A stretch of 64,000 nucleotides of DNA from Clostridia bacterium (GTDB lineage: Bacteria; Bacillota; Clostridia; Oscillospirales; Acutalibacteraceae). A model generated the notes under the pieces. The model made no database searches. It was not told the DNA's origin and saw nothing but the letters and a program-made list of their open reading frames with translations. Position numbers and translations under genes: made by a program. Positions 3,183 to 29,161 of this stretch are shown here, piece by piece; position 1 is the first letter of the stretch, and every line of letters begins with the position of its first letter. The stretch is from contig JAFTWE010000001.1 of the NCBI GenBank assembly GCA_017465465.1, forward strand, positions 51,460 through 115,459, read 5' to 3'.

Positions 3183-3650
3183 TTAGAAATACAGGCTGTC
3201 GATAAAGTCGGCTTCTTTGTCGGTAATATTGAAGATATCCTTATCATCCTCAGCAGCTTTAAGAAGAAGACTGCGGCCGTTACCTGAAAGCTGAACTGTT
3301 TTTTCAACGCCGATAGCTTTGAGGAAATCCTTGTCAATTTTAAGTCTGCCCTGAGAGTCAACAGTCTGCTCATCAAGCAAGGAGTATATGCGGTTAGACA
3401 TTGCTATGCGGTCTTTCGGGTTCTGGATAGCGTCAATTTTGGGCTGAGCGAATTCAAGCCAGCCGTCGTAAGTGTAGATGCAAATCTCCTTACGGTGAGG
3501 AGCGCAGAAAACATAAACAGCGTCATATTCCTTCTGAGAGCGTTCAAGCTGAGTGCGGAAACGGGCAGGAAGAGAGATTCTGCTTTTGTCGTCTAATGTT
3601 CTTGTGCACTGTTTGCCCACAAAAAGCTCAGGTTTTTTTGCAAATTCCAT
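3183..3650 (-). CDS. mraZ: Transcriptional regulator MraZ
   Basis: MraZ is an AbrB-like DNA-binding protein at the head of the division cluster that represses its own operon in species where it has been studied. The 155-residue protein carries the duplicated fold: first half with DDKSRISLPARFR (about residues 20-32), second half with VDSQGRLKIDKDFLKAIG (about 96-113). It is slightly longer than the usual ~143 residues because of an acidic C-terminal tail. A consensus promoter and three GGGA-type repeats lie just upstream. Confidence 0.95.
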   Translation of the reverse strand: MEFAKKPELFVGKQCTRTLDDKSRISLPARFRTQLERSQKEYDAVYVFCAPHRKEICIYTYDGWLEFAQPKIDAIQNPKDRIAMSNRIYSLLDEQTVDSQGRLKIDKDFLKAIGVEKTVQLSGNGRSLLLKAAEDDKDIFNITDKEADFIDSLYF

Positions 3651-27631: not shown

Positions 27632-27665
27632 AAAAAAATCTCAAGTCCCTGAAGACTTGAGATTT
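27632..27665 (-). terminator. Intrinsic terminator of the lipoprotein gene
   Basis: Perfect 11-bp stem AATCTCAAGTC / GACTTGAGATT (27638-27648, 27655-27665) with U-run on the minus strand. On its right edge sits TTGGTGCGAG, matching the 3' end of tRNA-Leu plus CCA. The identical hairpin recurs at 28848-28875. Confidence 0.85.
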
Positions 27666-27732: not shown

Positions 27733-28260
27733 TTAGCGAATTTTATAAGAAAAAACCTTTGTTCCTTTAGTGGTTGGAACTGCCATTTTAATAACAAGAG
27801 GATTATTTTCTTGCTCCTCAACTTCTGTGGGAACAGCAATCGCAACTTCAACAGTTACTGCATCACTTAGAGGCTCTAAATCGCTCAAAACAGAGTCAGT
27901 TGAACATAAATCAAGATTACCTAACATATCATCATATGAAAATAAATATCCGTCATTATAATCTACGCAAGGAATTGCCGAGTACATTAATGAATCCTTA
28001 TTTCCATCTATGGTTTTGATATAACCTAATTTAGTTTTTCCTATATTTTTTATTGAAAAAGTGAGAATTACAAAAATTTTGCCATCTCCCATTCCAATGG
28101 AATTATAGGTTTCAGCAAATTCACAAGATTGTAATGTCAATTGTGCACAATCAGTAGAAACCATGTCACCAACTGAATATTCATTTTTCGAGCCACTATC
28201 ACAAGCAACAAATGACAAGCTCATTATTGCAACCAAGAGTAATGCGATAATTTTTTTCAT
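27733..28260 (-). CDS. Putative lipoprotein (DUF4352-like Ig-fold)
   Basis: A 175-residue lipoprotein: short signal peptide with lipobox FVAC (cysteine at residue 20), then a beta-rich domain resembling DUF4352/telomeric-repeat-like Ig folds (VGDMVSTDCAQLTLQSCEF, then IFVILTFSIKNIGKTKLGY). ATG 28260 has AAGGAAG 6 nt upstream; the longer frame to 28374 runs through a terminator and is rejected. Function unknown, probably ligand or envelope binding. It lies directly downstream of the candidate structured RNA, which could be its leader. Confidence 0.75.
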   Translation of the reverse strand: MKKIIALLLVAIMSLSFVACDSGSKNEYSVGDMVSTDCAQLTLQSCEFAETYNSIGMGDGKIFVILTFSIKNIGKTKLGYIKTIDGNKDSLMYSAIPCVDYNDGYLFSYDDMLGNLDLCSTDSVLSDLEPLSDAVTVEVAIAVPTEVEEQENNPLVIKMAVPTTKGTKVFSYKIR

Positions 28261-28340: not shown

Positions 28341-28374
28341 AATAAAAAAGTGCGCCAACCGAAGTTGAACGCAC
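28341..28374 (-). terminator. Intrinsic terminator of the candidate RNA
   Basis: Minus strand hairpin GTGCG..CGCAC with inner CAAC/GTTG around a CGAA-type loop (28350-28374), followed by TTTTTTATT (28349-28341). Confidence 0.85.
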
Positions 28375-28560
28375 CGAAAACGCAAACTCCGATTGTCGCT
28401 ACACAAACTAAATCAGAATTAGGGTATATTTATCCATCATACATATTTAGTGGAGTTTGCGGTTTTACCAACTCTCAAAATATGTATGACCAAATAAAGG
28501 TATAATTATCCCTAAAAAAGAAAATGATACCTCTAATTCTAATTATTCAGTTTGTGTAGC
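28345..28560 (-). ncRNA. Candidate structured non-coding RNA or regulatory leader
   Basis: On the minus strand transcription should begin at about 28560. The first 12 nt, GCTACACAAACT (28560-28549), pair perfectly with AGTTTGTGTAGC (28409-28398). Inside this closing stem, AGAATTAG/CTAATTCT and GGTAT/ATACC extend an imperfect rod, and CATACATATTT (28488-28478) pairs with AAATATGTATG (28448-28438) to form an inner stem. The sequence CGCAAACTCC within the inner loop (28461-28452) is also perfectly complementary to GGAGTTTGCG (28390-28381) just outside the closing stem, giving a pseudoknot or a switch. A strong terminator ends it. Alternatives are a MITE with imperfect terminal repeats, a 6S-like RNA, or an attenuator for the lipoprotein gene. 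No known family recognised. Confidence 0.55.
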
Positions 28561-28566
28561 ATAATC

Positions 28567-28595
28567 AGTATATACTCTTTTTCGTAAAAAATCAA
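28567..28595 (-). promoter_or_regulatory. Promoter of the candidate RNA
   Basis: Minus strand -35 TTGATT (28595-28590), 17-bp spacer, -10 TATACT (28572-28567). The predicted start, about 7 nt further, falls exactly on the first base of the closing stem. A 15-bp palindrome GTTATTTTAAATAAC (28599-28613) abuts the -35. Confidence 0.7.
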
Positions 28596-28792: not shown

Positions 28793-28847
28793 GAAACAAC
28801 GTGTAACATGACTGTTCTTCGCCAAACCTGAATTTGAGCAAAAGAAA

Positions 28848-29034
28848 AATCTCAAGTCCCTGAAGACTTGAGATTCTTGGTGCGAGAGACGGGACACGGC
28901 TTTGCTACGCAAATCCTGCGTCTTCGGCGACCGTCGCTAAGCAACAGTACCCGCCTCAGACTTCGTCGCTAAAAACAGTTCACCGAACTGTTTTCTTAAC
29001 GCTCCTCACCCCCTTGGGGTTCAAGTCCCGTCAA
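28848..29034. repeat. tRNA-Leu-derived repeat with terminator copy
   Basis: TTGGTGCGAGAGACGGGAC at 28877-28895 is identical to 29077-29095, the 3' end of tRNA-Leu plus CCA, exactly 200 bp away. Left of it stands the same hairpin as at 27638-27665. At the other end GGGTTCAAGTCCCGTC (29017-29032, plus strand) is a reversed copy of the tRNA T-arm (29088-29103). The inside is a GC-rich stretch with a AAACAGTTC/GAACTGTTT hairpin (28973-28993). It looks like an insertion or recombination product at the tRNA 3' end rather than a functional tRNA, as no anticodon arm is present. Confidence 0.6.
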
Positions 29035-29073: not shown

Positions 29074-29077
29074 AATT

Positions 29078-29161
29078 TGGTGCGAGAGACGGGACTTGAA
29101 CCCGTACGGGATTACCACACGCCCCTCAAACGTGCGCGTCTGCCGATTCCGCCACTCTCGC
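29078..29161 (-). tRNA. tRNA-Leu (anticodon GAG)
   Basis: On the minus strand: acceptor GCGAGAG (29161-29155) pairs with CTCTCGC (29088-29082), discriminator A, and encoded CCA (29080-29078). The D-arm has the GGCGGAATCGGCAGACGC class II pattern, the anticodon loop is TTGAGGG giving anticodon GAG (codons CUC/CUU), there is a long variable arm, and the T-arm is ACGGG-TTCAAGT-CCCGT. Stand-alone gene with a consensus promoter and its own terminator. Confidence 0.95.

Follow-up and report, generated by a model that had tools for sequence, protein, structure and literature searches.

The closest described system is the guanidine-IV RNA (GGAM-1), for which it has been proposed that formation of the full terminator is prevented by a rigid fold (PMC7736828). 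In the literature covered, that proposal is the nearest mechanism in print to the terminator control proposed here for an RNA element in the window, a stretch of 64,000 nucleotides from a Clostridia bacterium (GCA_017465465.1, contig JAFTWE010000001.1, positions 51,460 to 115,459). Guanidine-IV shares with the element a possible pseudoknot, a Rho-independent terminator within the structure, a position upstream of several unrelated genes, and a terminator that would be controlled although no classical antiterminator overlaps it (PMC7736828). The two differ in sequence and size, and the element is order-restricted and has no Rfam match; guanidine-IV occurs mostly before sugE, whereas the element lies before surface and accessory genes (PMC7736828). 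The type III antitoxin RNAs ToxI and CptI resemble the element in their order of pseudoknot RNA, terminator and then gene, and in their tandem copies, but the copies of the element are about 155-215 nt long, have their own promoters and terminators, and precede unrelated genes. The element is also rod-like and about 190-215 nt long, like 6S RNA (RF00013), but has a pseudoknot and 4-11 copies in eight chosen genomes. Pseudoknots of the telomerase type and those of SAM-II and preQ1-II contain U.A-U triples, and the element resembles them in a crossing helix with an A5-U5 part and a conserved extra U-run.

The element lies on the minus strand (28560-28345) and is one member of a large family of structured RNAs. 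The promoter named in the original prediction, TTGATT (28595-28590) and TATACT (28572-28567) with a spacing of 17 nt, was read in the sequence of the minus strand (28567..28595). The transcription start is predicted at 28560, the first base of the closing stem P1, and the 5' strand of P1, GCTACACAAACT (28549..28560), was found to be perfectly complementary to the 3' strand AGTTTGTGTAGC (28398..28409), as had been claimed. Within P1, the predicted fold contains P2 (28533..28544 with 28411..28422, 92% paired), P3, a 12-nt repeat paired at 100% (TCATACATATTT, 28478..28489, with 28437..28448), and an apical hairpin, P4 (28453..28476), which is a rival pairing to the pseudoknot. The middle strand AAAACCGCAAACTCC (28452..28466) is common to both. 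A perfect 10-bp pairing of CGCAAACTCC (28461-28452) with GGAGTTTGCG (28390-28381) crosses the closing stem, and the pseudoknot 3' strand as delimited by repeat search and covariation, GGAGTTTGCGTTTT, occupies 28377..28390. Between this strand and P1 lies the joining segment GACAATC (28391..28397), the fourth base of which (28394) co-varies with P1 base 28405 in a putative alternative hairpin termed P1*. RNA folding and covariation in relatives predict an intrinsic terminator consisting of a UUCG hairpin and T6 (28344..28374), in agreement with the terminator first proposed; a simple terminator scan did not list it, probably because of its unequal arms. The downstream gene (27733..28260, minus strand) encodes a 175-aa lipoprotein-like protein, and its start codon is 84 nt past the U-tract. 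Two further perfect repeats had been described as interlocking with the closing stem in the order a-b-c-a'-c'-b'. Both are present, but the order was found to be a-b-c-b'-a'-c': the closing stem is crossed by the 10-bp pairing alone and encloses the 12-nt repeat.

When folded together with its promoter, the element had a minimum free energy of -85.5 kcal/mol compared to -46.25 kcal/mol (SD 3.85) for shuffled sequences (z = -10.2), and 0 of 200 shuffles were as good. Among 40 relatives drawn at random from the 132 non-redundant ones, z had a median of -8.8; 39 were below -3 and one was at -0.2. The original prediction had assigned the RNA to no known class and suggested an Infernal/Rfam scan. 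This was run with cmscan against 4227 Rfam 15 families and gave no match over the element in the window at gathering scores; at E ≤ 1, no Rfam match overlapped the element in 20 fetched loci including the window's own. The element thus belongs to a structured RNA family that is described by no Rfam family. No description was found in titles and abstract starts either, and overlap is possible with the thousands of candidate RNAs from human microbiomes in PMC8040213, a source available in part. The rod outline and unpaired middle had been likened to 6S RNA. However, RF00013 does not match the element, which is multi-copy, and a separate 6S was found elsewhere in the same genome (C30:28112-28303, 62.1 bits, cut-off 46.4). 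Since the genome has its own 6S, the element is almost certainly not a 6S-like RNA. Another 6S lies beside a relative of the element at a further locus (L031).

Searched as DNA, the element matched at 3 other positions in the window's genome, at one of them only over 29 nt of the promoter, and in 18 of 60 related genomes, its own included. The 20-mer RCWATCGGAGTTTGCGTTTT was present in at least 120 stretches from named genomes, most of which were Clostridia MAGs of gut origin, from ruminants among others; the cultured Pumilibacter intestinalis (L109) also carries it, as do three IMG/VR contigs. The only match in phage records, over 53 nt, was in a record without annotation, and plasmid records gave no match to the element. 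In 154 loci, 156 occurrences of the motif had a P1 partner that matched (5 others were rejected); 150 of the 156 were distinct, and these yielded 132 non-redundant members, 122 large and 10 short. A covariance model built from 48 large members (R1) recovered the shorter subtype, and a second model (R2) was built from 32 short members. Matches to R1 were found in 67 of 200 genomes of the window's family. Matches to R2 were found in 103 of 295 genomes of the window's order (own included) from 20 families, in 72 of 226 good genomes, and, in a phylum-wide draw, in 1 of 398 genomes, which was the window's own; because stricter filters were used in these distribution runs and 7-12 candidates were scored per genome, missing matches do not prove absence. 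Eight genomes chosen for having matches carried 5, 4, 7, 7, 11, 11, 7 and 5 copies, respectively. The five copies of the window's genome are on contigs C20 (the window), C6, C41, C30 and C53. Overall, the original prediction of a structured RNA stands without the 6S kinship and the interlocked order, and it had missed the leader position, the multiple copies and the order-wide spread.

Covariation was measured in two alignments, one of 48 large members and one of 32 short members, the latter found nearly all without the 20-mer. Over P1, pseudoknot and terminator, 97.4% of 1711 cells were paired in the large set and 16 pairs changed on both sides, and the corresponding values for the short set were 97.0% and 15 pairs. 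In the large set, 0 of 500 shuffles reached any of the five measures, and slid versions paired at 28-45%. Two-sided changes were found in 9 of 12 pairs of P1 and 6 of 10 pairs of the terminator in the large subtype, and RNAalifold recovered both helices unprompted in the short set. The covariance search suggested originally yielded a closing stem and a terminator with many compensatory changes among relatives. The pseudoknot was 98.4% paired in the large set, where 1 of 14 pairs changed on both sides and 10 of 14 varied one-sidedly with nearly all cells still pairing. In the short set it was 96.5% paired and 3 of 9 pairs showed two-sided changes (for example, G-C in 25 members and A-U in 7). 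Compensatory changes in the crossing pairing, which had been named as possible support, come mainly from the short subtype, those of the large set being mostly one-sided. The small number in the large set is partly explained by most loci having been found via the 3' strand: at least 120 loci came from the exact 20-mer, which contains that strand, and its invariance in those loci is due to this choice. Among P1 cells, 1288 were Watson-Crick, 41 were G-U, 0 were A-C and 21 were other, as expected for an RNA of the minus strand, the G-U count being read with the P1 search having rewarded G-U. These comparisons point to a conserved secondary structure with compensatory changes, as in a structured leader RNA, and to a terminator, predicted and covarying, that would serve as the expression platform.

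The window's promoter by itself is weak, matching at 9 of 12 positions, and a 2-kb scan found 10 promoter-like sites compared to 5.9 in shuffles; it is convincing because the promoters of the relatives are conserved. When 148 members were aligned on the -10 box (2 were left out for having too little flank), they showed TG one base ahead of TATAMT (an extended -10) and a TTGA-type -35. A -35 box matching at 5 or more of 6 positions was present in 63 of 148 members and in 4 of 148 after shuffling. The distance from the end of the -10 box to P1 was 6 nt in 115 members and 7 nt in 23 (138 of 148 at a fixed distance), the P1 search having favored -10 boxes anywhere 5-11 nt upstream, with no preference for 6; this conserved spacing agrees with the predicted start at the first base of P1. 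In 189 distinct elements, which are the profile matches in the first 233 loci, an ORF start lay within 320 nt in 186, with a Shine-Dalgarno-like motif in 169. A start of at least 40 codons with a strong Shine-Dalgarno sequence was found no more than 40 nt past the element in 110 of 181 cases, compared to 2 of 172 on the opposite side and 37 of 945 random positions. Where the start and its Shine-Dalgarno sequence directly follow the terminator, there is no room for another promoter. The position on the same strand directly before genes appears to be that of a leader. By sequence comparison, promoter spacing, P1 with the terminator, the crossing pairing and this position before genes all support a 5' leader RNA, which probably acts as a transcription attenuator. 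Its kind would then be that of a structured 5' leader with a terminator, in a family outside Rfam. A 29-nt stretch at L004 (1501-1529), 93% like the element's promoter region, lies directly before a gene without the RNA.

The genes behind the element are of many kinds. Of 158 non-redundant downstream proteins, 147 were scanned, and the matches listed, which cover 25 of 56 families, included BspA-type LRR_5 (18), AMP-binding (4), SHOCT (4), DUF6273 (3), MazE/AbrB (3), zinc ribbons (3), CHAP (2) and dockerin (2). The window's 175-aa protein had no Pfam match, and defence genes appeared as scattered single PADLOC matches among the 147 proteins. Crude rules assigned a lipobox to 26 of 186 and a hydrophobic N-terminus to 98 of 186, as raw counts without a background rate. 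A fixed tie to a gene family was not found: relatives of the AMP-binding protein carry the leader in 1 of 4 cases, and at 30 loci of AbrB-like relatives there was no full match and one weak partial match. This inconsistent carriage was counted against the leader reading. The diversity of the 147 proteins also bears on the possibility of a type III toxin-antitoxin system, in which tandem pseudoknot RNA and a terminator would precede a toxin gene. The order of parts is the same, tandem copies occur, and at L184 (1867-2833) four of them immediately precede a gene encoding a PIN7-domain protein. The proteins encoded downstream are, however, diverse and unrelated, ToxN is absent among the matches listed (25 of 56 families), and every copy carries a promoter and a terminator of its own, making this explanation extremely unlikely.

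The boundaries of the conserved sequence were compared with those of mobile DNA, a MITE or cassette whose inverted repeats would merely resemble RNA stems. A block that is 93.6% alike, ends at about the start codon and has different genes behind it is common to the window's element and one from a second genome of the genus (L001 and L005), which favors mobility; against two other elements, the alike block of the window's element ends in the signal peptide. Exact 31-bp direct repeats (27634-27664 and 28845-28875), which are terminator-like hairpins, flank the unit of element and lipoprotein gene, and their 28-bp core has just two occurrences in the genome when up to 2 mismatches are allowed. 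However, long direct repeats around the element-gene unit, considered as a sign of mobility, showed no enrichment, occurring at 6 of 75 elements (two from one tandem array) compared to 11 of 261 control positions. The many identical scattered copies that would have marked a MITE were looked for in the genome and only diverged relatives were found, the matches being partial (82-83% alike over 62-63 nt, and the 29-nt promoter stretch) with no near-identical second copy. Together with the one-strand G-U pattern and the constant orientation to genes, these diverged copies speak strongly against a MITE, and mobile DNA in general is a very unlikely explanation. The 3' end of the tRNA-Leu(GAG) gene (29078-29161, minus strand) is repeated exactly over 19 nt (28877-28895 and 29077-29095), 200 bp apart, in an att-like duplication.

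In ten tandem loci, picked for closely spaced matches, 2-4 copies were found in one orientation, 63-247 nt apart and 59-83% alike. At two of them (L185 and L266), a decayed start of a gene lies past the first copy, and an intact version of that gene follows the second. Within 260 nt of the C53 copy in the window's genome, there is no ORF of at least 40 aa with a Shine-Dalgarno sequence. Tandem copies with a lost gene and a gene-less copy are the main evidence that the RNA may act by itself, that is, as a stand-alone small RNA gene acting in trans, with the gene behind reached merely by leaky termination. The predicted promoter and terminator of each copy, and the retention of P1 and the terminator at this level of likeness by gene-less upstream copies, are consistent with such an RNA. 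On the other hand, the start codon and Shine-Dalgarno sequence directly past the terminator in 110 of 181 cases argue against it, and the tandem loci were chosen for being tandem and their duplications may be of any age. We consider a stand-alone RNA rather unlikely and retain the 5' leader as the preferred reading. At L267, two elements (730-892 and 3208-3369) are 98% alike and about 2.3 kb apart.

As a leader, the element would act as follows. Transcription would begin with the first base of P1, and the resulting fold would decide whether RNA polymerase stops at the terminator 215 nt on or reads through into the gene behind. The middle strand AAAA(A)NGCAAAUUCC would first close the weak hairpin P4, and GGAGUUUGCGUUUU would then capture it from P4, making the pseudoknot. 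The middle strand can pair locally, over at least 5 nt, in 146 of 150 relatives, and the median energy of P4 was -4.9 kcal/mol compared to -17.7 kcal/mol for the pseudoknot in the 150 members; in a shuffled-sequence control with 60 of those members, the best duplex had a median of -7.1 kcal/mol. GGAGUUUGCGUUUU ends 0 to a few nt ahead of the terminator stem, and a rigid pseudoknot in this place could hinder or favor the full terminator, as proposed for guanidine-IV. No antiterminator overlapping the terminator is conserved among members. Pairing of the middle strand with the terminator 5' arm was considered as one; it is possible by eye in some members, and in L028-like members the arm does not follow. 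A role for the GGAG of the pseudoknot strand in loading ribosomes, or for a leader peptide, was also rejected, the longest stop-free stretches varying widely; start codons 8-22 nt past GGAG in 145 of 150 members are mostly TTG or GTG, supplied anyway by the U-run and terminator.

A further exchange may take place at the 5' end. In 144 of 150 members, base 8 of the P1 3' strand makes a standard pair with the fourth base of the joining segment. On a tree built without P1 and the joining segment (118 sequences, 234 branches), these two bases, with totals of 14 and 13 changes, change jointly on 11 branches (P about 1e-14). In the short subtype, no excess covariation of P1* was found, 182 of 500 shuffles doing as well. 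We read the co-changing bases as an alternative hairpin, P1*, in which the P1 3' strand would fold back on the joining segment and open the closing stem; a base triple may account for them instead.

These findings describe a covarying RNA that is absent from Rfam and is present in several copies per genome in about one in three of the genomes sampled from a major gut order. They suggest that surface lipoproteins and BspA-type proteins are subject to a level of control that has gone unrecognised. The terminator has no classical antiterminator, and the two strand exchanges predicted next to it offer a testable case of control by a neighboring rigid fold. More tentatively, and with considerable doubt, the family might be a new signal-sensing RNA class in which a terminator-docking pseudoknot, perhaps locked by U.A-U triples, and a 5'-end exchange control shuffled surface and accessory genes order-wide, the RNA, and not the gene, being the unit that is kept and duplicated.

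In the large-subtype alignment (A1), columns 109-112 form a conserved unpaired U-run, with T in 40-42 of 48 members per column. One idea, and no more than that, is a U.A-U triple in which this run would join the A5-U5 part of the pseudoknot as a third strand. A U-run of at least 5 was present in 115 of 126 members compared to 51 of 126 in shuffles.
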